This document shows, piece by piece, positions 28,944 through 47,775 of a DNA stretch of 64,000 nucleotides. The notes beneath the pieces are model-generated. The model saw nothing but the letters and a program-made list of their open reading frames with translations, ran no database searches and was not told the origin of the DNA. Position numbers and translations under genes: made by a program. Every line of letters starts with the position of its first letter. The stretch's first letter is position 1. Origin of the DNA: Streptomyces sp. NBC_01216 (GTDB lineage: Bacteria; Actinomycetota; Actinomycetes; Streptomycetales; Streptomycetaceae); NCBI RefSeq assembly GCF_035994945.1, contig NZ_CP108677.1, positions 3,348,001 through 3,412,000 on the forward strand, given 5' to 3'.

Positions 28944-29195
28944 ACGCCCGAGTGTGAGCGCCGGTGCACGGTTCTGACAGACCGCGATTCGGCCGCATTG
29001 GCTCAGTCAGGCCGGTGCCGCCCCCCAGCGGTACGCCCCGAGCTCGCCGGCGACGGCCGGTACCGCGCGCACCCCCGGACCGGTGGGGGCAGCCATGAAC
29101 TCGACGACGTCGACCCGGACGGGGGACAGCGGTCCGAGGAGAATCCCGCCGCGTGATCGGTTCGGCCGGGGACGTTGATAGCACCCGCTGATGTC

Positions 29196-29228
29196 AGAGG
29201 CCCCCTGGACGATGTCCAGGGGGCCTCT
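29196..29228 (-). terminator. chromosomal terminator once downstream of tRNA-Arg
   Basis: A perfect 15-bp stem (29196-29210 with 29214-29228) and a 3-base loop, 6 bases outside the left attachment repeat. Before integration it would have stood just after the 3' end of tRNA-Arg(ACG), whose intact copy is now at 47,734-47,806. Confidence 0.75.
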
Positions 29229-29234
29229 CATCTG

Positions 29235-29278
29235 TGTGCACTCGGCAGGATTCGAACCTGCAACCTTCTGATCCGTAG
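29235..29278. repeat. left attachment site (displaced 3' end of tRNA-Arg)
   Basis: A 44-bp segment identical to 47,732-47,775. It contains the T-arm, the 3' half of the anticodon arm and the anticodon, and lacks the 5' half, so it is not a functional tRNA. The match ends abruptly on both sides, defining the recombination core. Confidence 0.95.
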
Positions 29279-29714
29279 GATCGGGCAGCTTGCCGTGAGG
29301 GCTGCCAACGGCCTCCTAATCCGATCGCCCAAGCCAGCGATCATGTGCGTCCGTGTGACGTCGTTGCCGTCAGCACTGCCGTCAACTCCAACCGGTCGCG
29401 CCGTCGCCATGACGGTCTGCCATCCGACCCTTCACAGCTCTATCAACACCGACTCTGGCAACCGCATGTCCAGCAGTCAGCCCCGGCAAATCACCCGCAG
29501 ATCAGCTGAGCTACAACTTTCTTTACTGGTTCAAGGCGGCTCGCTTCGCTCCCCGCGCGGCCCGACCCCGCCGGGCCGGCGCTCCTGCCTCCGTCCAGCT
29601 CCAGCCCGGCCGGCACCCATTCCCACGCGCATAGCATGCAGGCGCCTACAGCAGTCTGAGTGGATACCTCGACTGGAACGGTCGGTGTTGCAGCGAATTA
29701 CCGGCCGTAAAATT
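29279..29714. other. gene-poor left end of the element
   Basis: No convincing gene is found in these 436 bases. The stretch near 29,370-29,470 is AT-richer with scattered stops on both strands. The segment 29,518-29,540 is one copy of the inverted motif shared with 40,905-40,927. GC-rich dyads follow it around 29,548-29,585. This would be the attP-distal arm of the circular form. Confidence 0.6.
29518..29540 (+). repeat. copy 1 of a 23-bp motif repeated in inverse orientation
   Basis: TTTCTTTACTGG then TTCAAGGCGGC. The complement of 40,905-40,927 matches it at 22 of 23 positions. Read in one frame both copies give FLYW(F/I)KAAR, and both are followed by a GC-rich dyad. The role is unknown. 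Confidence 0.7.
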
Positions 29715-32597
29715 CTAACCTTCATACGAATCTGGAGTTGATAGCGAAAACTCGCCCTTACACCATCTGCAAACGAAATCAAAGAACTCGGGAGTAAACA
29801 TCGCACGATACTTATCCAATCCGGAGTCGTATACGCCCCTCCGGTGAGCCTTTGCAACGCGTGCGAATAGCTCATGGGCGCCGAAGTCCGCGAGAATCTC
29901 ACCGTCCCGGTCTTCCTCAGAACTATTTCTTTCGTCCGCTTCGAGCTCCATCCCAAGCATCCAACCCAAGAGCTGACATGCGGTGTTGTTCGGATCAAGA
30001 GGAAGGCGCGAAGAGTAGGTGATAAAACTCTGCCTGCCCTCCATCCATGGCGTTTGCTCAGGGAGCAGTGCACTGACTACTTCGCCTGCAATGCGGCCAC
30101 TTTCCTCATGATTCCACCGCAATCCGGGATAGCCAAGCTCATGCAGGACATTTTCAGGTCCTCCCGTACCATGCGGAGCCAATTTCTGTTCGGTCATGAC
30201 GGATGCCCCATGCCAGCTCACCGCTTGCGCGGCCTCCACCAAACCAAATAGCACTGCGACCGCTGCGGCTCGAATATCTCGCCGTGCTAGGTCGACGAGT
30301 GGGATCTGACTAGCATTCTTCCTATCTTGATCAGCCCAGAATCTCCGGACTTCCAAACTCGCGTGGCGAGGCACAAAGTCTGCCATTGAAATCGCAAGCC
30401 TCAGCTCATCGAATCCATGATCACCGGATGCCAGCGACTTCATCAGCTCGTCATTGACCACAGTCCGCGTTTCGGGAGCGCACAAGCAAACCCCAGCCCA
30501 TGCAGCATTAAGTACTTTTAGGTCGCGTCTATGAGAGGCCGGTACTGCACCCTGGTCTTCGGATAGGCCTTGATAGCTCTGTATGGTCAGGCGCAACAGG
30601 GCAGAAACAACCTCACGCACCACAGAGGGGCGGAGCGTGATGAACTCTAGAAGTCGTGCACAGAAGGAGATCAACGCGGACTTCTTCCTCCTCTCAGAAG
30701 TGCACTCCGACTCGCTGAGCGCCATGCTGACGAAGTCATTGGCCGCGTCGCCCAATCGCTCGTCCAAGAACTGCACGGCCAACTGGGAAGTAACGTCCCA
30801 TGACTCGTTCACCAGATGGGCGTGTAGCTCCTGATACAGGGAATCAACATTTCCACTATTACGAACCAACTGCCTGGCAGAGAAGTATTCCAGAAAAGTT
30901 CGGTGAGTGAACGAATAGATGCGCTCTCCGTTTGGGTTCGTACCGACATCTGTCAGCACCCAGGCCCGCCCTCTGCAATACTTCACAAAAGCCTCTGCTG
31001 CAGCGTCAGAGGTGTCACGGTCCTCATACTGCTGGCCCAGTAGATAATCAGAGGTGTAGCGGACAAGTTCCCTCTCCGTCATTCCACCACCCTCGCCCTG
31101 ATTGCGGAGCATACTCAACGCCAAACTAAACATTGCGAACTGGATACCGCGTTCAAATGGCTTCGGGATTGTTATCCCGCGAGAGGCGTCCCAACGCTCG
31201 AACAAGAATTCCGAGCATCTGCGGTACAGATCTGGGCGATTTCGAGGAATATACCCCTCTCCCCGGTACAGAGCACACATGAGGCCCAACATCAGGGGGT
31301 TCGAAGTCAGATCCCTTGCATGCGAGGATTCAGAAAGAAATCTGTCAGCCATCCCCTCTTCCTGCGCCGACCCCCTGACGTTCAGAAACCACTTCTTCAC
31401 ATATTGCTTCTGCTGCGCGCCATTGAAAGGAGAAAGATGCGTTACGAAGAAAAGGCTCTCATCAAGCGGGGCCATTTCGTAACCTACTTTGCGAGAGGTT
31501 ACCAGGATCGGGGCCGTGGGGTACGCGTGAGTGAAAGCCTCTACGGCATCAACGATTGCTGCACGCAGGCTAGTGTCAGTCAGTTCGTCCAAGCCGTCAA
31601 AAATTACCACGGCCCTACCATTTAGCAAGAGGTAATCTATTGCCCCCTCTGGGGCTGGGGTAGAGTAATCGGCCTTACACTGCTTTTCGAGGAAGTCAAT
31701 GATTGACTCCTGGTTGGACTTGTAATGGCTCGCATATTCTCGAAGAACGATTCGCAGCGGCGTTTGTAGCGCCGCCCCCGTTCCCAAACCTCTCGCGACA
31801 TCGATGGTTAGTTTCAGCGCGAGAGTGGTCTTCCCGCCCCCAGGGTCCCCTAGAACAACAAGTCTGCCAGTCTCCCGGAGCAGAGTTCGAGCATCAGAGA
31901 ATCCTTCATCCCCTGGATCCTCATCGCCGACTGCCAAGGTTGGCGGCACGTACAGATCCTCGAACTTTACCCGAGCACCCGATTCTGTTTGGGCAGGCCT
32001 GATTCGACCATGAATTCTGGCGCACTGCTGGGAAAGCCGAGTCGAGAATCTGTCAATATCGACTAGGCTAGCGATTCTCCGATGCAGTTCCGCATTCCTT
32101 GCTGCCGAAGCGATGTGAGATGCAACGATTTCTGGAGTAAGGCTACGCTTCGAAATTCCGCTATCTTTTTGGTGGCGATTCACCTCACTCCATGAGATAG
32201 CAGCCACTTCAGAAAAGAGGGTCTCTGCGATCAAGCGAGTCTTTCCATCCTCCACTCCACTATATCTACGGAGCGAGGTCTCCATGGTGTTCTTCAGAAC
32301 CTCCAAATGCGCTTCTGGATTGCCTGGCATGCAAGCAGCAACAGCCACCTCGAAGCACAGGTTCTCGAACTCGGCAGACTTCATAAACCCGAGAATTTTT
32401 TCCCGGTCTACAGCCGAAAGCCCTACTAGCGCTTTGCTAATATCGTCTGCACCGTGAAGTTCTACAGTAGCCGCTCGCTTTCTGATTGCCCGTCGCTCAA
32501 GACGCGATCGAGCACCTCCGAGTAGGAGCGGGCCTACAGCGCGCCCAGCAGCGGAACCTGCAGTGGATACGAGGCCAGTCGTGATCGGATCAGGCAT
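29715..32597 (-). CDS. NACHT-domain STAND NTPase, candidate anti-phage defence protein
   Basis: A 960-residue protein. The N-terminal 230 residues are helical with no recognised enzyme motif. The NACHT NTPase follows: Walker A GDPGGGKTT (250-258), Walker B IFDGLDEL (332-339), sensor VTSRK (366-370), then the FNGAQQKQYVKKWF and LTSNPLMLGLMC blocks typical of bacterial NACHTs. The last 400 residues are helical and probably sense the invader. Bacterial NACHT proteins are established phage-defence ATPases related to animal NLRs. The DNA is clearly foreign: mid-50s percent G+C on lines I counted, with rare codons ATA, CTA and AGG (e.g. 31,611-31,646). AGGGGGAG precedes ATG 32597. A composite transposon begins 12 bases upstream, cutting the gene off from its ancestral promoter. 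Confidence 0.88.
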   Translation of the reverse strand: MPDPITTGLVSTAGSAAGRAVGPLLLGGARSRLERRAIRKRAATVELHGADDISKALVGLSAVDREKILGFMKSAEFENLCFEVAVAACMPGNPEAHLEVLKNTMETSLRRYSGVEDGKTRLIAETLFSEVAAISWSEVNRHQKDSGISKRSLTPEIVASHIASAARNAELHRRIASLVDIDRFSTRLSQQCARIHGRIRPAQTESGARVKFEDLYVPPTLAVGDEDPGDEGFSDARTLLRETGRLVVLGDPGGGKTTLALKLTIDVARGLGTGAALQTPLRIVLREYASHYKSNQESIIDFLEKQCKADYSTPAPEGAIDYLLLNGRAVVIFDGLDELTDTSLRAAIVDAVEAFTHAYPTAPILVTSRKVGYEMAPLDESLFFVTHLSPFNGAQQKQYVKKWFLNVRGSAQEEGMADRFLSESSHARDLTSNPLMLGLMCALYRGEGYIPRNRPDLYRRCSEFLFERWDASRGITIPKPFERGIQFAMFSLALSMLRNQGEGGGMTERELVRYTSDYLLGQQYEDRDTSDAAAEAFVKYCRGRAWVLTDVGTNPNGERIYSFTHRTFLEYFSARQLVRNSGNVDSLYQELHAHLVNESWDVTSQLAVQFLDERLGDAANDFVSMALSESECTSERRKKSALISFCARLLEFITLRPSVVREVVSALLRLTIQSYQGLSEDQGAVPASHRRDLKVLNAAWAGVCLCAPETRTVVNDELMKSLASGDHGFDELRLAISMADFVPRHASLEVRRFWADQDRKNASQIPLVDLARRDIRAAAVAVLFGLVEAAQAVSWHGASVMTEQKLAPHGTGGPENVLHELGYPGLRWNHEESGRIAGEVVSALLPEQTPWMEGRQSFITYSSRLPLDPNNTACQLLGWMLGMELEADERNSSEEDRDGEILADFGAHELFARVAKAHRRGVYDSGLDKYRAMFTPEFFDFVCRWCKGEFSLSTPDSYEG

Positions 32598-32633
32598 TGC
32601 TCCCCCTAGTACTCCAGTTGTAGATCGCGATCT

Positions 32634-33947
32634 TCATGTCTGGGCGGCTTGTCGCTGATAGTGGCTGGCCTGGGATCGGGCCTGGTGGCGGCGTCGCCAG
32701 TGGGACCAGTCGAGCCGGTGAGCCGCGTCGTGGACGGGCCGGACGACGAGCGCGGTGAACAGGTGCTGGATCTCGTTGCAGGTGAGCGGTATCAGCCCGT
32801 CCGGCTTCGAGTGGCGGGCATGTTCGTCGGCGCGGACGACGGTGAGGAAGGCGTGGGCGAGCATCGCGAGGGTGACCCAGCGGTGCCAGGACGTCCAGCG
32901 TCTGACCTGGTGCTCGTCCAGTCCGGCCAGGCCCTTGCCGGACTGGAAGGTCTCCTCGACCGTCCATCTGCGCCCGGCGACCCGCACCAGAGTGGACAGC
33001 GGAACCCGGATTGCCGAGTAGCAGCGGTAGAAGGCAAGTTCACGGGTGCGCCGGTTGCGGCGGACGAGCAGCTGACGGTGGCCCGGCCGGTCGTCGGCGA
33101 TGTCGGCCAGGGCCCAGTCGTAGAAGCGGTGCCCCTTGGCGCCGGCACCAGCGGAGAGTTTCTGCCAGGCCCGCTTCGGCAGCATCTTGACCAGGGCGTC
33201 GGCGCGGAGCTTGCCCGCTCGGGTGGCGATCTGGTGGTCACAGGCTACGGCGAGCACGTAGCCGGTCTCGCGTCTCTCCAGCTCGGTCCGCAGATGCGGG
33301 TTGCCTCCGTAGACCTCATCGCCCGCCACCCAGGATGCGGCAACGCCGGCATCCAGGGCGCGGCCGATCATGCGGGCGGCGAGGGCGGGTTTCGTGGTAA
33401 AGCCGACGGCGTCGGGTATCCCGGCGGCCCGGCAGCGGGCCGGGTCCTCGGTCCAGGAGCGCGGAACATACAGCTCCCGGTCGATCGCCGCGTGCCCGAG
33501 CGGGGTTGAGTAGGCGAGGTAGACGGCGACCTGGCTGTTCTCGATGCGGCCTGCGGTGCCGGTGTACTGGCGCTGCACGCCCACCGTGCCGGTGCCCTTC
33601 TTCAGGTCGCCGGTCTCGTCCACGACCAGCACCGCGTCCTCGTGGTGCAGGTACTCAACGACGAAGCCGCGGATGTCATCGCGTACCGCGTCGGCGTCCC
33701 ACCTGGCCCTCGACAGCAGGTGCTGCAGACCGTACGGGGCCGCGTCCCCAGCATGCTCGGCGAGCGTCCAGCAGTTCTTGCGCGGCAGGCCCGACAACAA
33801 CCCGAGCACGAACGCCCGTGCCCGGCGCCGGGGTTCCACCCGGACGAACCGTCCCGCAATACGGCCCATCAGGGCCTCGAACGCCTCCTGCCAACGGGCA
33901 GGATCTATACTGTGACCCGCGGCCACCGTCTGATCTTCTGTCTTCAC
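32634..33947 (-). CDS. IS701-family transposase
   Basis: A 437-residue DDE transposase. The catalytic core includes AVLVVDETGDLKKGTGTVGV (first Asp), the segment ASWVAGDEVYGGNPHLR (second Asp) and RRWTVEETFQSGKGLAGLDE (Glu), followed by WHRWVTLAMLAHAFLTV. The frame is intact from GTG 33947 to the stop. The 3' side retains the terminal repeat and CTAG; the 5' terminal repeat could not be found, so the copy may be unable to move alone, although it could act on the composite ends. Confidence 0.9.
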   Translation of the reverse strand: MKTEDQTVAAGHSIDPARWQEAFEALMGRIAGRFVRVEPRRRARAFVLGLLSGLPRKNCWTLAEHAGDAAPYGLQHLLSRARWDADAVRDDIRGFVVEYLHHEDAVLVVDETGDLKKGTGTVGVQRQYTGTAGRIENSQVAVYLAYSTPLGHAAIDRELYVPRSWTEDPARCRAAGIPDAVGFTTKPALAARMIGRALDAGVAASWVAGDEVYGGNPHLRTELERRETGYVLAVACDHQIATRAGKLRADALVKMLPKRAWQKLSAGAGAKGHRFYDWALADIADDRPGHRQLLVRRNRRTRELAFYRCYSAIRVPLSTLVRVAGRRWTVEETFQSGKGLAGLDEHQVRRWTSWHRWVTLAMLAHAFLTVVRADEHARHSKPDGLIPLTCNEIQHLFTALVVRPVHDAAHRLDWSHWRRRHQARSQASHYQRQAAQT

Positions 33948-34247
33948 ACACCGATGATCACCGGTAATTGTCGAAAACGATCAAATTCGTGGGCCAGGTG
34001 GCCACGCGCGCGGCGACAAGCTCTGCCTTGTACATCGCAACAGGCCCAGACTCGTTCACGACCATGAGCCCCGCCGGAAGGTACTTACCTCCGCTAACGA
34101 CGATCACGGGCTTGCTGTCGCGGTACTCGATCGACAGTGTGCCCACGTCTTCGGGCTTGACCTCGTCAGCCGAGATCGGCGCCGGAACCGCTGTTTCAGG
34201 TGTGAGCTGAACCGGGGCCGGTCCTTTTGCGTCGGGCGTGGTCTCAG

Positions 34248-35909
34248 CCCGGATCCACCGGCTCGTTTCGTGAGTGATCGTTTTCGGTGATCGAGGCGAT
34301 GCGTCTGGCGGCGGGCATGGGGTGGCCGCTGGTCTGCCCAGCTTTTCCACATGTCCACAGCTCTCGGGCCCTGGCGGGCGGGTCAGATACGGGCAGGTCA
34401 GGTCGGTTGGGGCGGGGTGTGCAAGGTGTTGAAGAGGGCTTCGAAGGCGTCGTGCCAGGGCCAGCGTTCGGGCAGGTGCAGGGTGAGCCGGCGGGCCGAA
34501 CGGGCCAGACGGGCGGGCACGTTGACCAGGTGATCACGGATGGTCGCGCACGTCGCGCGGGCGTGAAAGGTGCCGGCGAGCGTTCCGCAGGCGCGGGTCA
34601 GGTTGAAGGCGAGGGCGGCCAGCGCGAGCCAGGCGGCGTTCGCCTGGAAGCTGCCCGAGGGGGCGTGTGCGAACGGGCCGTTCTTCAGCTCGGAGATCAC
34701 CTGTTCCACGATCGCGTGGCGCCGGTGGTCACGCTCGGCGTCGATGAGCGGCAGCGTGCTGTCGGTGAACGCGGCGTGGTAGCGCCAGGCGGTGAACAGC
34801 TCGCCCTGGCCCCCGGGCACGGTCGCGGGGTTCAGGCGCTTGACGCGTCGCACGATGAGACGGGCGGTGACCTGCTGCTTCTTCGGTTTCGAGGTGAAGG
34901 CGGTGTACTCGATCTCGGCGATCTCGGCGTCCGATATCCAGCGTTCCTCCTCGCTGTCCCACACCGCCTTGGGGTACTTGATCGGCGTCCAGGCCGTCTC
35001 GTCGATAGCGGCGATGGCCTGCTTGACGGAGGCGTTCATCCGCACCGTGACGGAGAAGCGGGCGCCGAGCGCGCGGCAGGCGGCGATCACCTCGGCGGCG
35101 TAGTAGGCCGCATCCGCCCGCACGGTCAGCATCCCGGTCGCACCGGACGCGCGGGCGGTGCGGACCGCCTCGGCGGCGAACGAACCGGCTCCGCGCACCG
35201 AGTTCACGCTGCCCTTGCGCAGCCTGGTTGCGGCGATCACCGGGGCGGCCAGCGGCGTGGACAGCGTCGCGATCAGCGCGTTCAGGCCCTTGACCTTGTT
35301 GTATCCGTAACCGGTGCCCTGTTTGGCATAGCCGTGGACCGGCTTGATGGTGTCGTCCAGATCGAGGTAGGCGACCGTGTCGGCGCCGGGCAGCAGCGGG
35401 GTGTGCGCGGCCAGGCGAGGCAGGAACCGGCGGGCGACGGCGTGCAGTTGCTTCACGTGCCCGTGGGTGAAGGACCGCAGGAAGCTGCCGAGGGTCGACG
35501 GGGCGCGGACCCCGGTGAACAGGCGCCGCATCGCGCCGTGCCGCAGCCGGTCCATGTCGTCGATACTGTCCGCGCCCGCGGCCATGCCCGCGATGAGCGC
35601 CATCGACTTGGCGGCCGGGAAGGAACCGGTGCCGTTCTTCGAGGCCGGCAGCCGCATCATCTCGCCGACCAGGCCGGGCAGGCCGCACCGCTCGGCCAGG
35701 CGCACCAGCGGCGCGAGCCCGCCGTACGCGATCAGATTCGGATCATCGAACCGTGCGGAGACCTTCGCCGCGGCATGGGAAGATTGCATCTCAGAAGTGC
35801 CCTGTTGGTCGTGCGTGCTGGAAGCGTGAGAACTCCCATCATCGCAGGTCACAGGGCACTTCCTCGTTCCCGGCAACGTCACCGCCGCACATCAACCGGT
35901 GGATCCGGG
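34248..35909 (-). mobile_element. IS1380-family insertion sequence
   Basis: A 1662-bp element with terminal inverted repeats CCCGGATCCACCGG (34248-34261 and the complement ending at 35909), flanked by the direct repeat CTCAG (34243-34247 and 35910-35914). It carries one intact transposase gene and is the most recent insertion in the nest. Confidence 0.88.
34398..35789 (-). CDS. IS1380-family transposase
   Basis: A 463-residue DDE transposase. Typical parts: DDPNLIAYGGLAPLVRLAER at the start, TVAYLDLDDTIKPVHGYAKQ with the first catalytic Asp, MLTVRADAAYYAAEVIAACR with the second, and HAIVEQVISELKNGPFAHAP with the Glu. GTGYGYNKVKGLNALIATLS is the family's central motif. ATG 35789 gives the usual N-terminus. 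The frame is undamaged, so the element should be active. Confidence 0.95.
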   Translation of the reverse strand: MQSSHAAAKVSARFDDPNLIAYGGLAPLVRLAERCGLPGLVGEMMRLPASKNGTGSFPAAKSMALIAGMAAGADSIDDMDRLRHGAMRRLFTGVRAPSTLGSFLRSFTHGHVKQLHAVARRFLPRLAAHTPLLPGADTVAYLDLDDTIKPVHGYAKQGTGYGYNKVKGLNALIATLSTPLAAPVIAATRLRKGSVNSVRGAGSFAAEAVRTARASGATGMLTVRADAAYYAAEVIAACRALGARFSVTVRMNASVKQAIAAIDETAWTPIKYPKAVWDSEEERWISDAEIAEIEYTAFTSKPKKQQVTARLIVRRVKRLNPATVPGGQGELFTAWRYHAAFTDSTLPLIDAERDHRRHAIVEQVISELKNGPFAHAPSGSFQANAAWLALAALAFNLTRACGTLAGTFHARATCATIRDHLVNVPARLARSARRLTLHLPERWPWHDAFEALFNTLHTPPQPT

Positions 35910-36149
35910 CTCAGTCATGGCCTCTCCTTGCTTGCCGGCGCAATACCGACCCGGCCAGAGCGTCGCATCACGGAGCGGCACCAGTCCATCACTCTCGAGA
36001 AGAGGGCCGGAAGTCAGCTTGGTGGCGCGAATTGACCCCTGTACTCGGAGGTGTACCCCCATGCCCTGTCAAAGTAGGTCAGGCCAGGCATGGTGGATGA
36101 CTCATGGAGTCGAAGGCGGGTAGGGAGAAGCGCCCACAGTGGCCGGCCC

Positions 36150-36341
36150 CACCGACCTGATCCCGCAGTCCTGCAACGAAATCCAGCGGTATTCATGACC
36201 ATCATCGTCCAGTCCGTCCATGACGCGGCCCACCGTTTCGTCTGGTCCCGCTGGCGATGCCGCCACCAGGCCAGATCTCAGGCCAGCCACTATCAATGCT
36301 AAGTCGACCGGACATGAAGATCGCGATCTACAACTGGAGTA
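36150..36341 (+). pseudogene. 3' remnant of a second IS701-type transposase
   Basis: The last 45 or so codons of a relative of the transposase at 32,634-33,947, in opposite orientation: DLIPQSCNEIQ, then after a one-base deletion near 36,190 the frame continues as IIVQSVHDAAHRFVWSRW and RSQASHYQC before a stop. The outer 31 bp are identical to the other copy's end, while the coding part is visibly diverged, so these are two different elements of one group. Confidence 0.8.
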
Positions 36342-36345
36342 CTAG

Positions 36346-37171
36346 CTGTGCAATCGATGAGTCCAAGGTTAGGGCAACAACACGCTTCGTATGCCGATTT
36401 CTCACTGATCGAGTGCCGTACCGGTCCGAACTCAACGGTCTCACTCCTACTGTGTGGTCGCAGCCCCAGGGCTTCTCAGCTGAGGGCTCCGCCGACGTCA
36501 CGGGCTGGCCATACCACTTGCTCTGGTCGACGACACACTTTGCGTGGCTGAGGTCGTTTAGGGGGCGAATCGCACGCTGGCCTCATTGGTCGGCCCACCC
36601 GCCCTCGTGGCTGGCGTCGTCAGCCCAGACGGAGAGCATCAAGGGTTCCAGTCGTCGGCCGAGAGCAGCGGAGCTGGACCATCCCTAAGCCGTCCGACGC
36701 CGCTCGAGTGGCTACTGACGACCAACGACGATCATCAAACGCAGATGGGGAACTGTGGGGAAGCACGGCGAAAGCAGCCGAGGCCGACACGGCAGCTGCC
36801 AAGCTGTTCGCCCAGGTCAGCGCCCAAGCAAAGCCAACATGCTCGCAGATTCCCAGGCTGAGGACTCTGGCCACCACAACCTATGGTTATGTTGCCGCGA
36901 TGCCGACCGGGTCCGTACCGACTTGCCCCGAGTACGACGGCCGGTACAGCAGTCAGGTACGGCAACCCTGGTAGCCGCTCCCGCACGGTAGCGACCCTCC
37001 GGGCTCGCCCAACGACCGGTATGCCCCCGCTAACCGTATCCCGCTAGAGCTACGGTTCAGAAGCCCCGTATTCCCCCCTCGTCTTCAATCGAGCGGGGAA
37101 CGCAGGCGCTCCAAGGCCGCGCTCAACGCGAAGTCCCCCTAGCCGATCTACGTGATCCTGGCACGCCGAAA
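36346..37171. other. no confident gene; ancestral upstream region of the NACHT gene
   Basis: These 826 bases have lower G+C than the chromosome and only short open frames on either strand, none with recognisable homology or a good start. The best candidate is a GTG-initiated frame at 36,708-36,974 (plus; 88 residues), which I do not trust. Because the composite transposon starts 12 bases before the NACHT ATG, this region must have been directly upstream of the NACHT gene before that insertion and may hold its original promoter. Confidence 0.55.
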
Positions 37172-37642
37172 TTAACCGAGATAGGGCCGCTCACGTTGCT
37201 CCAGAAAGTGCCGGATTCGTAGCCGCTGCGTATGGTGCATGGAAAGTTGATCAATCTCCTCGGGCTGAACGAAAGTCAGCTCCGTGGACTCGTCCGAGAT
37301 AGCAAGCCGCCCGCCGACCACGCGGGCGACAAAACAGACGTTGAACTGTCGACGCACCTCGCCGTCCGAGTAGGCGATGACGTGGCGAGGGTCGGTGTAC
37401 GTCCCCACGAGCCCGGTGATCTCCACGTCCAGCCCCGTTTCCTCCTTCACCTCGCGGACGGCCGTACCCGGCAGCGAGTCGGTCATCTCCATGCCGCCGC
37501 CGGGCAGCGCCCAGAGATCGTTGTCCCGCCGGCGCTGCAGGAGGATGCGTCCCTCGTCGTCCGTGACCACCGCGGACGCGGCGACGACCAGACTGTTGGG
37601 CTTCGGGGCGTCTGGGTCGTCGTAGTACTCGGTGCGTGCCAT
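37172..37642 (-). CDS. Nudix hydrolase of the AICE
   Basis: A 156-residue Nudix enzyme. The Nudix box is GGGMEMTDSLPGTAVREVKE followed by ETGLDVE, with the usual REVKEETG core; the Glu expected eight residues in is replaced by Asp/Ser, a mild deviation. It starts at ATG 37642, two bases after the stop of the XRE gene, so both form one operon. Nudix proteins next to an XRE regulator are common in AICEs (e.g. the pra-associated nud gene of pSAM2), where they are thought to influence transfer or maintenance. Substrate unknown. Confidence 0.88.
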   Translation of the reverse strand: MARTEYYDDPDAPKPNSLVVAASAVVTDDEGRILLQRRRDNDLWALPGGGMEMTDSLPGTAVREVKEETGLDVEITGLVGTYTDPRHVIAYSDGEVRRQFNVCFVARVVGGRLAISDESTELTFVQPEEIDQLSMHHTQRLRIRHFLEQRERPYLG

Positions 37643-37644
37643 GA

Positions 37645-38388
37645 TCACTTCTCTCGTACTGGCGTCGCGGTTGCCCACACCGCGTCGAAGCTGTCGGCGT
37701 AGGTGTCGAACATGCCGTCTTCCCCGTTTCGGCGCAGGTGCCACACGGGGGCCTTGTAGGCGTTCACGCCCCAGACGTGGGCGTTGACCAGTGCCTGATC
37801 ATCGGCCCGGTAGATCGAGTTGTAGAGCGTCGTGGCGTGAGTCCGGACCTCGATGCTCGGTACCCCGATGAGGGGGCGGTAGTGCATCAGCGCGAGACGG
37901 CACCGGGACTGAATGCCGTGCCCGAACTTCTCCTCGTCGCCGCGCTGTTGGACGTTGGGGCTGTCTGCGTCACCGACTGCGATGCGGACTGCACAGCCCT
38001 CGGCCGCCCGCTCCTTCAAGAGCTCGTTGAGCCGCGGGTACGCCTCGTGCAGGAACACGGCGGCATACACCAGCACGTCGATCTGCTCGCGTGCCTGGGT
38101 CAGCATGTCCACGAAGGTGGAGACGGGGATGTCCGCCCGCTGGTCGTAGAGGGCCACAAGTTCCGGACTGACTGCGCGGGCGGGGCGTGCCTGCCTGAGC
38201 GATGGCCATAGAGCGTGCACGTCTTCTCCTAGCGTCTCTGCTGCCACCATGGCCGTGGCACGACGTGGCGTACGCCCCAGATTGACCCATCTTTCAACGG
38301 ACTTGGGATCGACTTCGACCTTGTCCGCGAGGGCGTTGTACGTCCAGCCGCCGGCCGCCATGGCCGCACGTAACCTCTCGTTTGCCAT
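37645..38388 (-). CDS. XRE-type regulator with a phospholipase-D-like C-terminal domain
   Basis: A 247-residue protein. The N-terminal helix-turn-helix is RAAMAAGGWTYNALADKVEV then DPKSVERWVNLGRTP. The C-terminal 170 residues (IDVLVYAAVFLHEAYPRLNE, CAVRIAVGDADSPNV, HGIQSRCRLALMHY) resemble the phospholipase-D-like fold seen in regulators annotated with DUF5919, but no complete HxK motif is visible, so it is probably not an active PLD. ATG 38388 has AGGAGAG upstream. It is divergent from the small plus-strand genes across a region with repeated GGGACGT motifs. Confidence 0.78.
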   Translation of the reverse strand: MANERLRAAMAAGGWTYNALADKVEVDPKSVERWVNLGRTPRRATAMVAAETLGEDVHALWPSLRQARPARAVSPELVALYDQRADIPVSTFVDMLTQAREQIDVLVYAAVFLHEAYPRLNELLKERAAEGCAVRIAVGDADSPNVQQRGDEEKFGHGIQSRCRLALMHYRPLIGVPSIEVRTHATTLYNSIYRADDQALVNAHVWGVNAYKAPVWHLRRNGEDGMFDTYADSFDAVWATATPVREK

Positions 38389-40438: not shown

Positions 40439-40904
40439 GTGGAAGCCCTGATCAGGACCCCGGTGCCGATGGTACCGGGGCGGTCGGCGTGCGCGGATTC
40501 GGGTGCGGCTACAACCCCTGCTGACTGTTGCCGAGTTAGAGAGTAGGCCTGTTGAAGTTCGGTCATTGGAAGCACAGTTCGGACCTGAGCCACCGAAAGT
40601 CAGCCACGACGGCGGGAGCGCCGAACGAGCACCCGTCACGTGTGTCTCCAGCAACCCCGTTCCGGCCTCAGCCACGCTTCCCGGTTGTGAAACGTCGGCC
40701 ATCCGGACGGCGCGGTCACGCTTGGTCCGGCTCGGCCTGGTCCTGGTCTTGGTCCTGGTGCTCGGGCCGGGCGAGTTGCTTCCTGGCCTGGCTGTCTGCC
40801 TTGGCGGTGCTGCGCGCTGAGTGGCCGGGGGCCGGCGCAGCGGTGGCGGAGACAGGGAGCGGCGGCGGCCCGTGGCCGCCCGCGCGCGCGGCCCGCCGCA
40901 GGCG

Positions 40905-40927
40905 GGCCGCCTTGATCCAGTAAAGAA
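40905..40927 (-). repeat. copy 2 of the 23-bp inverted motif
   Basis: The complement matches 29,518-29,540 at 22 of 23 positions. It ends 29 bases before the SOS box. Confidence 0.7.
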
Positions 40928-40956
40928 ACTCTGACCAGCGTGCAGCCCGGGGAATT

Positions 40957-41012: not shown

Positions 41013-41240
41013 ATGACCGAGCACATACCGGACAACGAAATGGGGTCGACCAGCATTCACGTCGGGGACACGGATCAGGTAGTCGCGCTGATCGAGGAGA
41101 TGCGGGCCATGGTCGGCCGCCTCAGCAGGGAGACCAGGGAGTTGCGAGAGGAAGTGGCCCAGCTCAGGACTACGGCTTCGGCTGCTGAGCTGCCTTCAAC
41201 TCCTCGACCTCACGGCGCAGTTCCTGATGATCGGCGCTGA
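41013..41240 (+). CDS. small coiled-coil protein under an SOS box
   Basis: A 75-residue protein: MTEHIPDNEMGSTSIHVGD, then a heptad-like coiled coil (VVALIEEMRAMVGRLSRETR then ELREEVAQLR), then a short Pro-rich tail. AGGGAG is 2 bases before ATG 41013. The last 71 bases overlap the 3' end of the KorSA-like gene on the other strand. The LexA box suggests induction on DNA damage. Function unknown; the coiled coil echoes the C-terminal coiled coil of the facing GntR protein, so the two could interact. Confidence 0.55.
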   Translation: MTEHIPDNEMGSTSIHVGDTDQVVALIEEMRAMVGRLSRETRELREEVAQLRTTASAAELPSTPRPHGAVPDDRR

Positions 41241-41661
41241 GGGCACGGATCTCGTCACGTAGTGCGGTGAGTACTTCAGCAAGGGTGGTCCCGACGTCTT
41301 CGGCCGCTTCGGTGTCGTCGGGCCCGCCCGCCCCCTGCCCTGCCGGGCCGACCTTCTCGCCCTTGTTCGCCAAGTACCAAGCTGGAGCGGTGTAGTTCGC
41401 CGAGAGCTCCCCGTCAGGGTTGTGGTCCGCGACGAAGCTGCCCCGACCATGGATCGTGTAGATCAAGCCCTCATCGCGCAGCACGTTGAGCGCGGATCTC
41501 ATGGTCATGTTGGCCACGCCGAAGCGTTCCTGTAGCTCGCGAATGGCCGGCATCTGCTCGCCCGGCTTGATCCGCCCCTGCAAGATGTCGCGCCGAAGCT
41601 CGTCGGCAGCGTGCTGATACGGCGGCCGACGATCCTGCTTGCTCTCTGGCGCGGGGCTCAT
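41170..41661 (-). CDS. KorSA-like GntR-family transfer repressor
   Basis: A 163-residue regulator. The winged helix is YQHAADELRRDILQGRIKPG, QMPAIRELQERFGVANMTMR and DEGLIYTIHGRGSFVAD, the GntR pattern. The C-terminal 70 residues end in a coiled coil (LTALRDEIRALSADHQELRR) instead of a ligand domain. Position, orientation and a perfect 23-bp palindrome just upstream match KorSA of pSAM2, which represses the activator and transfer genes. ATG 41661 is the start. Confidence 0.85.
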   Translation of the reverse strand: MSPAPESKQDRRPPYQHAADELRRDILQGRIKPGEQMPAIRELQERFGVANMTMRSALNVLRDEGLIYTIHGRGSFVADHNPDGELSANYTAPAWYLANKGEKVGPAGQGAGGPDDTEAAEDVGTTLAEVLTALRDEIRALSADHQELRREVEELKAAQQPKP

Positions 41662-41702
41662 GGCCCAAGAGTAGCGATTCCTAGCACCCCTAGCACACCC
41701 CA

Positions 41703-41725
41703 CTGACATAGGTGGCCTATGTCAG
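41703..41725. promoter_or_regulatory. operator of the KorSA-like repressor
   Basis: A perfect palindrome CTGACATAGG-TGG-CCTATGTCAG, 41 bases from the repressor start. Related half-sites GACACCTAG (41,727-41,736 region) and CTAGGTCAG (41,760-41,768) follow, the last overlapping a TTGACT -35-like box at 41751. Binding here would control both divergent transcripts. Confidence 0.7.
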
Positions 41726-42183: not shown

Positions 42184-42392
42184 GCAACAACGATCGCCGG
42201 TCCGGCGCTGAGCGCAGCTACCCGCTGCCTCACGCCGGGCAGGGGGCGCACTTCACCGAATCACTCGTGAACTCGGTCGCGGCCGTGCTCGTTGCCTACG
42301 GCTATCCCCGCCTCGACGCGTCGGCGGATCGGGCGGCCCTCGAATCGGCCCTCGCGGCCTTCCTCTACAACCCAATGGAGAGCTACAGATGA
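42180..42392 (+). CDS. small AICE transfer-operon protein
   Basis: A 70-residue protein coupled on both sides (GTGA at its start, ATGA at its end). The middle, TESLVNSVAAVLVAYGYPRL, is helical and moderately hydrophobic; the N-terminus is polar. It sits in the place of small spread or transfer accessory genes. No recognised domain. Confidence 0.6.
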   Translation: MSNNDRRSGAERSYPLPHAGQGAHFTESLVNSVAAVLVAYGYPRLDASADRAALESALAAFLYNPMESYR

Positions 42393-43795
42393 AGGATCCG
42401 AACGCCCCGGCGGAAGGCACCCTCGGGCACGTCCCGCTCATCGTCGCCCTGCCGCTCGCCGTGCTCATCGGATGGGCGCTCTGGTGGATCGTCCGCTACG
42501 TTCGCGCTGACGCCATGACCCGGCAGTCCATACAGCAGGCCATACGCGTGCGGTGGGGCTGGAGGCGGCTCGCACCGATGCTCAAGTTGTCGGCCACGGA
42601 CAAGACCCCGACCGCACTGGCGTCACTGGCGAACACGAACGGCAAGCCCACCAAGCCGCGCGTCCTCATCCCCTCCCTCAAGGTGAAGCACGACGCGTAC
42701 GGAGTGATCGCGCGGGCCCAGTGCCTGCCTGGCGTTGGACTCCAGCAATTCCAGAAGGCGGGCCCGCATCTGGCGGACGCCTGGCGGTGCACACGGGTGG
42801 CGGTCACCCAGGACAAGCCTGGGCAGGTCCTCATCAGGGGCGTGCGACTGGACCCGCTGAAGTTCCCCACCGAGCACCACCCCACGGGTGAGCCACCGGA
42901 GGAGACAGCCCAGTGGGACCTGGGCCTCGACGAGTACGCGCAACCCGTGTCTGTGAACCTCACACAGGTGCCCGGCGTGACCGTGGCCGGCCTCCCCGGC
43001 TTCGGCAAGACCAGCCTGATCAACCGGCTCCTCTCCGACTGGGCACCCTCGCCCGCAGTGCAGTTCGCCTGCGCGGACGGCAAAGTGTCGGCTGCCTACG
43101 AGGGCGACTACGCCGATTGGGTGCAACGCATGTTCGCCTTCGTGGGCGATGACCTGGAAGAGGCCAACAAGCTGTTCCGGCACCTGGTGGAGCTCCGCCG
43201 CGCCCGGTCGGCTTCGGTGCGCCAAGTGCTCGGGGTGAAGTCCATGTGGATCGTCGGCCCGTCCGAGAACTGGCCGCTGGTCGTGCTGATCGTCGACGAA
43301 GCCCACACGTACTTCCGCGACCACAAGGGCAGCGACCAGCAGACGAAGAAGCTGGCCTCGCTCGCCGCCGAGAACGCCCGGCTCGTGGAAGACCTGGTGA
43401 AGAAGGGCCGGTCCGTCGGGCTGCTCGTCATCCTCACCACTCAGAAGTCCACCGGCGACGCGATCCCCACCTTCATCCGCGACGTGTGCCCCGTCGGCCT
43501 GAGCTTCGCCCAAAAGACCGCCGAAGCCGCCGTGGCCGCGCTCGGCGACGAGATCCGGGAATGGCCCGACGCCAACCCGATCAACCTCCAGGACCCCACC
43601 TACGTCGGCGTCGCGTCCATGAACCACCAGTCGCAACCCGGCTTCACCCGCATCCGCACGCCCTACGTGCCGGACGCGGAAGCAGCTCGCGTCGCCGAAC
43701 AGACGGCAAACCTCACCGCCGACCCACACGCCCTCCTGGAAGCCTTCCTCGGCCCGCGCATGGCGGACGTGGACCTCACCAAGCTCGACGCCTGA
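42389..43795 (+). CDS. FtsK/SpoIIIE-type conjugative DNA translocase (Tra)
   Basis: A 468-residue membrane-tethered ATPase that moves double-stranded DNA between mycelia. One N-terminal membrane helix (about 15-36, VPLIVALPLAVLIGWALWWI) is followed by the motor: Walker A GLPGFGKTS (201-209), Walker B VVLIVDEAH (298-306), then GRSVGLLVILTTQKSTGDAI and RDVCPVGLSFAQKT as in TraSA-type proteins. The C-terminus probably carries DNA recognition. The start overlaps the previous stop as ATGA. This single protein replaces a secretion apparatus in AICE transfer. Confidence 0.9.
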   Translation: MKDPNAPAEGTLGHVPLIVALPLAVLIGWALWWIVRYVRADAMTRQSIQQAIRVRWGWRRLAPMLKLSATDKTPTALASLANTNGKPTKPRVLIPSLKVKHDAYGVIARAQCLPGVGLQQFQKAGPHLADAWRCTRVAVTQDKPGQVLIRGVRLDPLKFPTEHHPTGEPPEETAQWDLGLDEYAQPVSVNLTQVPGVTVAGLPGFGKTSLINRLLSDWAPSPAVQFACADGKVSAAYEGDYADWVQRMFAFVGDDLEEANKLFRHLVELRRARSASVRQVLGVKSMWIVGPSENWPLVVLIVDEAHTYFRDHKGSDQQTKKLASLAAENARLVEDLVKKGRSVGLLVILTTQKSTGDAIPTFIRDVCPVGLSFAQKTAEAAVAALGDEIREWPDANPINLQDPTYVGVASMNHQSQPGFTRIRTPYVPDAEAARVAEQTANLTADPHALLEAFLGPRMADVDLTKLDA

Positions 43796-43857: not shown

Positions 43858-44562
43858 ATGACAGAGGACCGGATCACTCAGCGCACCATCACCGCCGTCA
43901 TGATCGTCATTGCCGCGCTGGCGTTCGTCTTCTCCTTCGGCAACGTCTGGTCCCTCGCCCTGCGCCTGGGCGTCCCCGGCCCGATCGCACCGCTCATCGC
44001 TCCGATGGTGGACCTCTCCGTGGTCGGCCTCCTGGTCGCCCTGCGCTACCTCTCCCTGCGCGGCCTGCCCGCCGACGAGATGACGGCGGCCACCCGTCTG
44101 ATGCACTTCTCCGGACTGCTGACCTTGGCCCTCAACGTCGCAGAACCGGTCGTCGCCGGACACTACGGCCGCGCCGCCGTCGACGCGGTGGCCCCGCTGC
44201 TCCTCCTCGGCTGGGGCTCCGTCGGCCCCCAGCTCCTGCGCGCCTTCCACACCGTTGCGCGCCCCGCCATACCGGCTTCCCTGCCGGACGAGATCGAGTC
44301 GGTCCCCGAGACCGCCTCAGACACATCCCGCCCTGCCGTGCCGCTCTCGATTCCGGCCCCGGCTGCGGCTCCCGTCGCTCCTCGCGTCGCCCCAGCTCCC
44401 GCTTCGCCTGCGGTCAAGATTCCTGAGCCGCTGCTGACCGAAGCCCGCTCCATCGCGACGTCCCACCACGCCGAGCACGGCGAACCGATCACGGCGGCCC
44501 AGCTCAAGACGCGGCTGGCGATCGGCCTGCCCATGGCCACCGCGCTGCACGCCGCTCTGTAG
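43858..44562 (+). CDS. SpdB-like DUF2637 membrane protein
   Basis: A 234-residue protein. Four membrane helices cover about residues 10-130 (TAVMIVIAALAFVFSFGNVW; GPIAPLIAPMVDLSVVGLLV; RLMHFSGLLTLALNVAEPV; AAVDAVAPLLLLGWGSVGPQ), the DUF2637 pattern. A Pro/Ala-rich cytoplasmic part and a small helical end (ITAAQLKTRLAIGLPMATAL) follow. Such Spd proteins promote spread of the element within recipient mycelium. It lies 62 bases after the translocase gene. Confidence 0.85.
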   Translation: MTEDRITQRTITAVMIVIAALAFVFSFGNVWSLALRLGVPGPIAPLIAPMVDLSVVGLLVALRYLSLRGLPADEMTAATRLMHFSGLLTLALNVAEPVVAGHYGRAAVDAVAPLLLLGWGSVGPQLLRAFHTVARPAIPASLPDEIESVPETASDTSRPAVPLSIPAPAAAPVAPRVAPAPASPAVKIPEPLLTEARSIATSHHAEHGEPITAAQLKTRLAIGLPMATALHAAL

Positions 44563-44716: not shown

Positions 44717-46180
44717 ATGCGCCGCCACCTCGACCTGCGCCACATCATCAGCCCCGGCCTGCGGGACCTGGTCGAACTGGCCAACACCGACGACTTCGAC
44801 CGCGTGACGGAACAGGTCCGCAACCTTCGTGGCTGCACCAGTCCCGTCAACCTGCACGGCTGGACGGTCACCACCGACCAGACCACCAAGCAAGTGGTCC
44901 GCTCCTACCGCTCCGAGGACGAACCCTCCGGCCGCCTCCTCACCACCTGCGGCAACCGCCGCGCCTCCCGCTGCCCGGCCTGCTCCCGCCTCTACGCCGC
45001 CGACACCTACCACCTGATCAAGGCCGGACTGTCCGGCGGCAAGAACGTCGCTGAAGCCGTCCGCGACCACCCGCGCGCCTTCGTCACCCTTACCGCCCCG
45101 TCCTTCGGCCCCGTCCACAATCGCCCGACCACCGACGCAGGCAAGCCCCGCCCCTGCTCGTGCGGCGAGAGCCACCCGGAAGGGGCTCCCGAACTCGGCA
45201 CTCCACTCCACCCGGCAAGCTACGACTACACCGGCGCCGTTCTGTGGAACGCCCACGCCGGAGCTCTGTGGGCGCGCTTCACCACCTACCTGCGCCGCGC
45301 CCTTGCCGAGCACCTCGGCATGACACAGAAGGCGCTCAACTCGGCCCTCCGCGTCTCCTTCGCCAAGGTCGCCGAGTACCAGCAACGCGGCCTGGTCCAC
45401 TTCCACGCGGTCGTCCGCTTCGACGGTCCCGACGGCCACACCACCTCGCCCCCGGCCTGGGCCACCTTCGACGCCCTCCACGCTGCCGTCGGCCTAGCGG
45501 TCGAGCGCGCCCGGCTCCTCGTCGAGTCGGACGCCGTCGGCGAGCGCGTCATCCGCTGGGGCGACCGGTTCAAGGTGGATCAGATCTCCGCCCTGGGGGA
45601 CGGCGAACTCACGGACGCCAAAGTCGCCGGATACGTCGCCAAGTACGCCACCAAGAACGCCGAGGGCGCGGGCACCGTAGACCGCACCCTCGTATGCCGC
45701 CCCTGCTCCGGACGCGGCCACGTACGCGGCCCGGACGGCTTCCGCGACCTCTGCGCCGACTGCGACGGCACCGGCCAAGCCGAATCCCTCACCAGCCTCC
45801 CCGTCCAGCAGCACGCCCGGCAGATGATCCGCACCGCATGGGCCCTTGGCCACCTCCCCGAGTTCGCCCACCTCAAGCTCTGGAAGTGGGCCCACATGCT
45901 CGGCTTCCGCGGCCACTTCTCCAGCAAATCGCGCGCCTACTCGACCACCCTCGGCGCACTCCGCGACGTACGCCGCGCCTGGCGCACCGCCCAAGCCGAA
46001 GCCGCCCGCATCCGCGCCGGCCTGCCCGTCGACGACGAGAACACCACCCTCGTCACCGCCTCCTCATGGACCTACCTCAGCAGCGGCTACCGCCCCGGCG
46101 AAGAGCTCCTCGCCGCACAGGTCCGCCACGACATCACCCACGCCCAACGCGCCAAACAGGAAGGGCTGCTGCCTGCATGA
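44717..46180 (+). CDS. RepSA-like replication initiator
   Basis: A 487-residue initiator. A zinc-binding start (TTCGNRRASRCPACSRLYAA) precedes the HUH nuclease motif GLVHFHAVVRFDG (His228, His230). KVAGYVAKYATKN (about 309-321) contains the tyrosine expected to nick DNA. A DnaJ-like pair CRPCSGRGH and CADCDGTGQ gives a second zinc site. This is the AICE rolling-circle replication protein. The 154 bases upstream contain no gene and may include the origin. Its stop overlaps the excisionase ATG as ATGA. Confidence 0.9.
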   Translation: MRRHLDLRHIISPGLRDLVELANTDDFDRVTEQVRNLRGCTSPVNLHGWTVTTDQTTKQVVRSYRSEDEPSGRLLTTCGNRRASRCPACSRLYAADTYHLIKAGLSGGKNVAEAVRDHPRAFVTLTAPSFGPVHNRPTTDAGKPRPCSCGESHPEGAPELGTPLHPASYDYTGAVLWNAHAGALWARFTTYLRRALAEHLGMTQKALNSALRVSFAKVAEYQQRGLVHFHAVVRFDGPDGHTTSPPAWATFDALHAAVGLAVERARLLVESDAVGERVIRWGDRFKVDQISALGDGELTDAKVAGYVAKYATKNAEGAGTVDRTLVCRPCSGRGHVRGPDGFRDLCADCDGTGQAESLTSLPVQQHARQMIRTAWALGHLPEFAHLKLWKWAHMLGFRGHFSSKSRAYSTTLGALRDVRRAWRTAQAEAARIRAGLPVDDENTTLVTASSWTYLSSGYRPGEELLAAQVRHDITHAQRAKQEGLLPA

Positions 46181-46359
46181 CGACGGCCGTACTCACCGTG
46201 GACCAGGTCGCCGAACGTCTCGGCATCAGCCGCTGGAAGGTCCACGACCTCATCCGCTCCCGCGAACTCGCCTCCTTCAAGATCGGCCGCTGCCGACGCA
46301 TCAGCGCAGCCGCCGTCGACACCTACATATCCCTCCGCACGGAACAGGAAGCCGCCTGA
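46177..46359 (+). CDS. xis: excisionase (Xis)
   Basis: A 60-residue MerR-like DNA-binding protein: VLTVDQVAERLGISRWKVHD, LIRSRELASFKIGRCRRISA, AAVDTYI. This is the standard AICE Xis that directs the integrase to excision. Overlaps of ATGA with rep and TGATG with int make rep-xis-int one translationally coupled unit. Confidence 0.92.
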   Translation: MTTAVLTVDQVAERLGISRWKVHDLIRSRELASFKIGRCRRISAAAVDTYISLRTEQEAA

Positions 46360-47642
46360 TGGCCAAGCCGAAGAAGAATCCCAACAACGAGGGCACCATC
46401 TACCTTCGCAGCGACGGCCGTTGGGAAGGCAGCGCGTACGTCCTCACCACAGACGGCACGTACAAGCGGCGCAGCGTCTACGGCAAGACCTGGGAGGAGG
46501 CGCACGAGAAGCTCACCAAGCTCAAGGCCGATTCCCTCAACGGTCTCCCGGTCGCCACCAACAAGATGACGATCGCCGAGTACCTGACGTACTGGCTGAC
46601 GAACATCGCCCAAGGCAAGGTCCGCCGGACGACCTACGTCAACTACGAGTCCCTCGTCCGCAACTACGTCACCCCGGAGTTCGGCCGCAAGAAGCTGGTC
46701 CGGCTGACCGCCCGCGACATACGCGCCTTCCTCGCGAAGACGGCCGTCACCTGCCAGTGCTGCGCGCAGGGCAAGGACAAGAAGCGGCCGGAGCACAAGC
46801 GGCGCTGCTGCGCCCTCGGCACGTGCTGCAAGAAGCTCCCGTCTGACCGGACCGTGCGCTTCCTGCTGGTGATCATGCGTGCCGCTCTCCAGCACGCCGT
46901 GCGTGAGGACGAGCTGCCCCGCAACGTGGCCAGGAACGTGGAGCTGAGCATGGGAACGAAGCGCGAGATCGAACCGCTCACGGTCAAGGAAGGACGTCAG
47001 CTCCTGACGGCGGCCAGGGAAAACCGGCTGTGGGCCGCGTACGAGCTGGCGGTCCGCATCGGCCTACGGCGCGGGGAGCTGCTCGGGCTGCGCTGGTCGG
47101 ACGTCGACCTCCTTGACGGCGTCCTCACCGTGCGGCAGGCCCTTCAGCGAGTCGGCGGAGAACTGCTGATCGTCGCCCCGAAGACGCAGCGCTCGGCCCG
47201 TCGCGTGGCTCTACCGGCCGAGTGCGTGACCGCGCTCCGTGCTCAGCGCGCCCAGCAGATCGCCGACCGAAAGGGAGCGGGCAACAACTGGAAGGGGACA
47301 GGGCAGGGTCTCGTCTTCACCACCAGGAACGGAACCCCCATCGAGCCGCGCAACCTGAACCGCTCCTTCGAGGCGCTCTCCATCCGGGCCGGCGTCCGCA
47401 AGGTCCGCTTTCACGACCTGCGGCACACCTGCGCGTCCCTCCTCCACGAACAGGGCGCGGACGCCCGCATGATCATGGAAGTCCTCGGCCACAGCTCGAT
47501 CCGCGTGACCATGGACATCTACACCTTCGTCCGGCTCGACTCACAGCGCTCGGCGTTCGACCGAGTGGGGGACGCCCTGAGGGGTGACGGCAACGATCCG
47601 GACGATGACGATGGCGCGGCCGGTGTCCCGGTAGCCGTCTGA
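46359..47642 (+). CDS. int: tyrosine site-specific integrase
   Basis: A 427-residue tyrosine recombinase. Catalytic residues are Arg237 (RIGLRRGELLGL), His352 and Arg355 (FHDLRHTCAS), His378 (LGHSS) and Tyr388 (MDIYTF). Between the N-terminal arm-binding part and the catalytic domain is a Cys-rich insert (CQCCAQGKD and RRCCALGTCCKK), usual in the AICE integrases. It is followed by a terminator and the attachment site in tRNA-Arg, its target. Confidence 0.96.
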   Translation: MAKPKKNPNNEGTIYLRSDGRWEGSAYVLTTDGTYKRRSVYGKTWEEAHEKLTKLKADSLNGLPVATNKMTIAEYLTYWLTNIAQGKVRRTTYVNYESLVRNYVTPEFGRKKLVRLTARDIRAFLAKTAVTCQCCAQGKDKKRPEHKRRCCALGTCCKKLPSDRTVRFLLVIMRAALQHAVREDELPRNVARNVELSMGTKREIEPLTVKEGRQLLTAARENRLWAAYELAVRIGLRRGELLGLRWSDVDLLDGVLTVRQALQRVGGELLIVAPKTQRSARRVALPAECVTALRAQRAQQIADRKGAGNNWKGTGQGLVFTTRNGTPIEPRNLNRSFEALSIRAGVRKVRFHDLRHTCASLLHEQGADARMIMEVLGHSSIRVTMDIYTFVRLDSQRSAFDRVGDALRGDGNDPDDDDGAAGVPVAV

Positions 47643-47731: not shown

Positions 47732-47775
47732 TGTGCACTCGGCAGGATTCGAACCTGCAACCTTCTGATCCGTAG
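47732..47775. repeat. right attachment site in tRNA-Arg
   Basis: The 44-bp copy matching 29,235-29,278. It supplies the 3' part of the functional tRNA, so integration leaves the tRNA intact. Confidence 0.95.

Follow-up and report, generated by a model that had tools for sequence, protein, structure and literature searches.

What does a NACHT gene without companion effectors do at the cargo end of a Streptomyces mobile element? The question was raised by an open reading frame (ORF) at 29715..32597 on the minus strand of the window, the whole stretch of 64,000 nucleotides analysed from Streptomyces sp. NBC_01216 (GCF_035994945.1, contig NZ_CP108677.1, positions 3,348,001 to 3,412,000). The gene is carried by an actinomycete integrative and conjugative element (AICE). 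Our results suggested, with a probability of about 60%, that its product is a single-protein immune receptor similar to the nucleotide-binding leucine-rich repeat proteins (NLRs) and that it is cargo of conjugative elements. By its domain and predicted fold, the product belongs to the bacterial NLR/NACHT kind. It was regarded as a variant of that kind because its N-terminal domain was present in no library searched. The initial annotation had called it the best candidate in the window for an undescribed defence system. This went too far, since the kind is known and the homologues are many. The protein is probably a phage-defence or exclusion protein, a function that we infer.

The reading frame was intact and uninterrupted and coded for 960 aa; the NACHT/NLR-like assignment was based on the ORF, Pfam, the homologue search, the model and a fold match. 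The NACHT family PF05729 matched residues 246-404 with E = 1.9e-14 (54.3 bits against a cut-off of 26.7), and all other Pfam matches of the protein were to P-loop families. The Walker A residues G250, P252, G253, G255, K256 and T258 were invariant in 119 aligned sequences. The same was observed for D334, G335, D337, E338 and L339 of the Walker B/DE motif, for T367 and R369, and for F563, H565, T567, F568 and E570 of the winged-helix motif. The Walker and downstream NACHT motifs first noticed in the letters alone were thus confirmed. The homologue search covered 5.8 billion proteins, and 508 of the 7998 scored candidates were homologues at E<=1e-3. Among the best 120 of the 508, 17 (P0002-P0018) were 51-80% identical, with P0017 covering 57%; an organism name was given for 13 of the 17, and all 13 were Streptomyces. 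The family was sizeable, mostly actinomycete and apparently linked to AICEs. The protein had a single distant match among 50,697 phage records. The sequence of P0001 gave one match to solved structures, judged to be chance, and the family profile retrieved, at E >=0.018, chiefly P-loop proteins together with the winged-helix motif of NLRP3.

The predicted model showed the nucleotide-binding domain (NBD), helical domain 1 (HD1) and winged-helix domain (WHD) fold of NLRs, and the nearest solved folds found by Foldseek were NLR modules. The NACHT module covered residues 235-660 (30618..31895, minus strand) and consisted of NBD-HD1-WHD and the start of HD2, as read from Pfam, motifs and fold, with borders that were our own reading. 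The model resembled mammalian NLRC4, NLRP3 and NOD2 in having an openly arranged NBD-HD1-WHD-HD2 fold. The winged-helix FTHRTF motif of the protein also aligned, weakly, with that of NLRP3. In contrast, leucine-rich repeats, CARD and PYD were not found here, and the N- and C-terminal parts were unrelated to those of the three proteins by the searches made.

The two ends of the protein differed in conservation. Among 16 close sequences, mean pairwise identity was 72% for residues 1-40, 59% for 41-230, 71% for the NACHT core and 87% for HD/WHD, and it fell to 39% for residues 666-960. The last part corresponded to a variable, all-helical C-terminal region (residues 661-960; 29715..30617, minus strand), a putative sensor delimited by the drop in identity and the AlphaFold2 (AF2) model. 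No Pfam family covered it, in the whole protein or in cut pieces. The ratio of nonsynonymous to synonymous substitution rates (dN/dS) between the window gene and that of Streptomyces sp. yr375 was 0.075 for residues 1-230, 0.037 for 231-575 and 0.165 for 576-960, small numbers that rest on 2, 2 and 8 nonsynonymous changes. These values point to past purifying selection on the gene, and the fast-changing C-terminus fits a sensor role. The VIA rows scarcely tested residues past 717. A total of 103 plasmid records matched the family, and seven plasmid-borne homologues were scanned for domains. SIR2_2 was found in two, one of which had been chosen for its SIR2 label, N-terminal NNH2 was found in one, and four had no named N-terminal domain. 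NNH2 matched a distant Gloeocapsa homologue at 1.6e-64. The finding of SIR2_2 or NNH2 in some of these proteins and of no named domain in others fits an effector slot. Arrangement and conservation were consistent with a tripartite layout of N-terminal effector, NACHT module and C-terminal sensor, in which the functions are putative.

The putative effector was a helical domain of residues 1-234 (31896..32597, minus strand) defined from AF2 models. It was covered by no Pfam family, in the whole protein or in cut pieces, and so matched neither a known effector nor a known regulator there; its AF2 model had no Foldseek match at E<=0.001. The earlier statement that both terminal regions match no named family therefore held. 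The best Pfam hits of the cut pieces (DUF2114 0.21, Baculo_Ac102 0.081, DUF1327 0.24, Gly-zipper_Omp 0.68) were taken as chance, and NCBIfam hits on the N-terminus at 0.0081 and 0.016 were at chance level against cut-offs of >=455 bits. Pfam scans of 26 close and 38 spread members gave chiefly NACHT and P-loop families, with 25 of 43 families listed for the spread members. Weak matches in few members, among them HEPN_SAV2148 (0.065, two members), were taken as chance. The NNH profile had no match to the N-terminus of the window protein at E<=10 in a program whose filters drop most weak matches.

No obvious catalytic set was seen in the conserved N-terminal columns by our own reading. This observation, together with the lack of any effector family in Pfam, would suit a bundle that acts as an adaptor and recruits an effector encoded elsewhere. 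NLRs often have adaptors of a helical, death-like type. However, no effector-like neighbour recurred in 22 family loci. Nine neighbour clusters reached 3 loci, the commonest being GntR-type (7) and FtsK-like (4) with all others at <=3, and none was a conserved partner. In the window, the gene lay 436 bp from the distal attachment (att) site with no partner gene seen between them. The absence of companion effectors claimed at the outset was consistent with both results, and an adaptor role was considered possible at rather low odds.

In the preferred reading, the N-terminal domain would itself be the effector. Its first two segments were examined. Helix 1 (residues 4-24; 32526..32588, minus strand) contained G14xxxG18xxxG22, was low in charge and was modelled with low confidence in the domain-only model. 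It adjoined a basic segment (residues 27-45; 32463..32519, minus strand) with a net charge of +6 by charge count. These features were counted in the 87 of 119 rows that reached helix 1, the 32 other rows being dropped. The charged fraction of helix 1 was 0.119 compared with 0.244 elsewhere, and its G/A/S fraction was 0.51 compared with 0.22. The segment aligned to 27-45 had a mean net charge of +4.3 compared with -0.33 elsewhere and reached >=+3 in 72/87. GxxxGxxxG occurred within the first 45 residues of 28/119 members, compared with 3.8 in shuffles. Helix 1 was absent from some homologue starts; in P0004, at least, this was because of the start call (P0004 vs L004).

From this anatomy a mechanism was proposed. 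The variable C-terminal helical region would sense a phage- or element-derived cue, and the NACHT-HD1-WHD-HD2 module would exchange nucleotide and oligomerise, forming a ring like that of NLRC4. For this module, the fold was predicted and matched, and the reaction would be that of known NLRs. The ring would bring the N-terminal helical domains together, so that the infected compartment may no longer support the invader. A non-enzymatic effector step would best fit the anatomy. In the weakest step, the glycine/alanine-rich helix and its basic collar would insert into the membrane or cluster at it, and the front end may thus act on the membrane. The benefit to the element would be a host shielded against phages or against elements that compete with it. 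In its boldest form, the family would be a one-protein bacterial resistosome. When infection is sensed, the NACHT ring would free the helix with its glycine zipper and basic collar from an N-terminal bundle whose fold has yet to be solved, and would perforate the membrane. Such a bacterial counterpart of coiled-coil NLR and HeLo pore formation would have spread through actinomycetes on tRNA-Arg conjugative elements; we consider this form speculative and unlikely.

Several observations weighed against these proposals. The best 19-residue window of helix 1 averaged 1.09 on the Kyte-Doolittle scale, just 4/119 members exceeded 1.6, and the N-terminal window was the most hydrophobic one in only 7/97 longer members. 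A charged fraction of <=0.10 in helix 1 was reached in just 40/87, and residues 1-23 had a predicted local distance difference test score (pLDDT) under 50 in the domain-only model. Whole-chain Foldseek TM-scores to NLRs were low, at 0.18-0.37 by query length. PADLOC, in a scan of the window protein alone, gave P-loop-level matches only. Matches to HeLo, MLKL or RPW8 were absent from the Pfam and fold search results. A classical transmembrane helix at the N-terminus was rejected, its hydrophobicity being too low. Membership of HeLo/MLKL/RPW8 was unsupported, and PDB searches with the N-terminal model gave nothing convincing; the absence of these families from the PDB listing does not exclude them. 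The Pfam profiles HeLo, SesA and Helo_like_N matched neither the window protein nor the piece cut from its N-terminus. The likeness to the HeLo/MLKL/RPW8/BELL effectors (extracts of PMC7889193, PMC9815663) was one of analogy and lay in a helical bundle whose N-terminal helix could be released to the membrane. The helix here had small residues, low charge and an adjoining basic segment, but its hydrophobicity was below that of a membrane-spanning helix, and no sequence or fold match was found.

The carrier of the gene was examined at both ends. An exact 44-bp repeat was found at 47732..47775 (minus strand), at the 3' part of tRNA-Arg(ACG) 47733-47806, and as a copy of that 3' part at 29235..29278 (minus strand), the distal att site. 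Between them, on the plus strand, lay an integrase (Int; 45846..47642, PF00589 5.8e-28, start codon uncertain), a RepSA replication initiator (Rep; 44717..46180, PF20199 1.8e-148), a DUF2637 protein (43858..44562, PF10935 1e-06) and an FtsK/SpoIIIE-like transfer protein (Tra; 42389..43795, PF01580 3e-4, under the Pfam cut-off). A GntR regulator (41170..41709, PF00392 7.2e-20), which we take to be KorSA-like, and a NUDIX protein (37172..37744, PF00293 5.6e-20) were coded on the minus strand. With Int, Rep, Tra (below the Pfam cut-off) and tRNA-derived att repeats, the element is a pSAM2-type AICE. In one of 11 relatives' loci compared, that of G019 (L050), the left flank (~70% identical) and the right flank were contiguous at tRNA-Arg(ACG) as an empty site. 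These findings established the gene as cargo of a mobile element. Its foreign base composition was also borne out, with 54.3% GC compared with 71.6% for the window outside 29001-37000. The gene was >=10 GC points under its flanks in 15/22 family loci with flank values, one duplicate and two flankless loci being excluded and the flank of G209 measured over <1 kb. A 25-bp sequence was also seen twice in the AICE, inverted and with 2 mismatches, at 29518-29542 and 40904-40928; L005 had an 83% match over ~100 bp to 29516-29613, a stretch retained in L003.

Mobility was also observed elsewhere in the family. Six of 22 distinct family loci lay in tRNA-bounded elements: the window (tRNA-Arg ACG), yr375 (by att copy only, without a tRNA on the contig), WELS2 (tRNA-Arg TCT, 42 nt at 90%), G209 (tRNA-Arg CCT, 43 nt at 95%), AA1529 (tRNA-Arg CCG, 46/46) and Actinomycetospora L014 (tRNA-Val, 44/44). 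Since flanks were read to ~10 kb, larger islands would be missed. Seven close members included five with att repeats, all tRNA-Arg (window, yr375, WELS2, G209, AA1529; not S. olivaceus or S. niveus). Close members lay at tRNA-Arg genes of the four anticodons ACG, TCT, CCT and CCG (L032, L033-L036 and the window). For S. olivaceus, no tRNA was found in the 44 kb read, and a 19-bp piece was shared with att. In S. niveus, an ORF 1.0-2.5 kb upstream clustered with ORFs of AA1529 and WELS2 that we read as integrase-like. In yr375 the order was Rep, Int, att, NACHT. Its Rep and Int proteins were 45.5% and 44% identical to those of the window, and this divergence placed near-identical cargo on a different backbone. 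Int, att and NACHT stood in a row at 8042-12659 of L031, on a 13.4-kb contig with no terminal overlap found that would close it as a circle. The arrangement represents an excised circle or else two elements in tandem.

The same sites bear on a reading in which the protein acts not on phages but on rival AICEs or plasmids that enter the hypha. The tRNA-Arg-derived repeats in 5/7 close members are consistent with such element exclusion. So is the state of tRNA-Arg(ACG), apparently a hotspot of integration in this genus. Of 24 other genomes of the genus, at least 8 (G002, G004, G006, G009, G012, G016, G023 and G024 by our own reading) had a second copy of the att end within ~20 kb of it on the same contig; the copy in G009 was 33 bp, and two others were 90-94% identical. 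According to an extract of PMC3218068, pSAM2 carries a dedicated NUDIX immunity protein, Pif. However, the window element already carries a Pif-type NUDIX gene, 16/22 loci had no tRNA-bounded element within the flanks read, and the row of NACHT, att and another Int in yr375 suggested that tandem co-residence may not be blocked. Exclusion was regarded as a live but improbable rival, and anti-phage defence, as first proposed, was plausible only with that rival beside it. For the defence reading, the NLR-type architecture, sporadic carriage, SIR2 homologues and restriction/HEPN neighbours make a putative activity plausible.

Carriage across genomes is sporadic: the gene was present at E<=1e-100 in 8/392 genomes of the genus draw and 5/391 of the order draw, its own genome included in each. 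The copy of Actinacidiphila paucisporea (L022 10001-11625) looked broken because the match fell in two overlapping frames. Defence-type neighbours were found in 3/9 plasmid regions read, and none was evident in the remaining six; those found were an N-6 DNA methylase, a Swt1-HEPN protein, and a HEPN-nucleotidyltransferase with McrC. On an Agrobacterium plasmid (L064), a SIR2-NACHT protein was seen near a HEPN-nucleotidyltransferase gene and mcrC. Upstream of the family gene, a small protein (100-126 aa) that carries the motif LLPW..G.PCY close to its N-terminus recurred in L009, L013 and L032. STAND-type regulators such as AfsR occur in Streptomyces, and the protein could accordingly regulate signalling or transcription of the host, or transfer of the element, with no part in defence. 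This was judged highly unlikely, given that Pfam found no DNA-binding domain in the window protein or its cut pieces, that the nearest solved folds were NLR modules, and that carriage is sporadic.

Beyond the initial annotation, the immediate upstream neighbour of the gene proved to be an insertion sequence (IS). The IS unit (32606..36345) contained a DDE_5 transposase, is presumably IS701-like and had CTAG at its edges (32606-32609 and 36342-36345). The cargo was also found in Streptomyces sp. yr375 (L003), where the DNA identity was 97.7% across 29220-32609 and 96.4% across 36342-36812. That contig lacked the stretch between 32609 and 36342 and had CTAG once at the uninterrupted site. Insertion had occurred 12 bp (8 bp + CTAG) before the ATG and had displaced the native leader (36346..36812, minus strand; 96.4% identity to the sequence immediately preceding the gene in L003) by 3.7 kb. 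Over its initial 1642 bp, the IS was found at 100% in three further genome places, in each of which an inverted 83% end followed and the element was 2.07 kb. The extra length in the window was because a second IS, presumably IS1380-like, was nested within; its DDE_Tnp_1_4 transposase lay at 34398..35882 (minus strand), and other copies of the edge of this second IS were found in the genome. Four places at 100% over 1642 bp pointed to recent transposition in the strain.

The split from the native leader makes expression in this strain uncertain, which is a further point against a working receptor here. It would suit a decaying passenger, a gene still intact with its expression lost through the IS 12 bp from its ATG, and AICE cargo is frequently pseudogenised in the extract of PMC9513070. 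However, the reading frame was intact, and a Shine-Dalgarno-like GGGGGAG (32600..32606, minus strand; read from the sequence) was kept after insertion. The DDE_5 transposase (32634..33947) was on the same strand as the gene, with its stop 36 bp before the ATG, and a simple scan found no terminator-like site between them, so that transcription could read through into the gene. The past purifying selection also spoke against decay, and we consider a passenger unlikely. No sigma-70-like promoter site was found in 29200-37200, which is little evidence in Streptomyces.

Among known systems, the immune receptor proposed here was closest in plan to the bNACHT anti-phage proteins. As described in an extract of PMC12169576, these were assayed in E. 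coli and likewise have a central NACHT, an N-terminal effector slot and a C-terminal sensor slot in a single protein. Their clade 6 has a nuclease N-terminus with NCH1 and clade 14 SNaCT C-termini; in contrast, neither a nuclease nor an NCH domain was found by Pfam in the present protein, a distinction between descriptions. The best NCBIfam match was EruA, a NACHT antiphage protein (NF058535), at 3e-11 in the NACHT region, with 42 bits against a cut-off of 1000 for a profile of 1318 positions. PADLOC PDC-S60 matched the NACHT/P-loop region of family members P0065 (2.3e-9) and P0041 (9.6e-8), and PDC-S73 matched the window protein at the P-loop only (0.0013). No Avs-named match was among the PADLOC matches at E<=1, in a library whose Avs models were not checked. 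A Frankia AICE likewise carries an 'NTPase with Nacht domain' as cargo in the extract of PMC3218068. No study of this NACHT family was among the search results listed for the open PMC library, and the words NACHT, NLR and AVAST were absent from the available part of PMC10482375.

The most open and interesting step is the mode of action of the helical N-terminus. The gene offers a direct test of whether killing by a bacterial NLR can fall to an N-terminus that is helical and non-enzymatic, and the 99% identical gene with and without the upstream IS is a ready comparison pair. It also offers a test of whether AICE cargo protects its hosts from phages or from rival elements.
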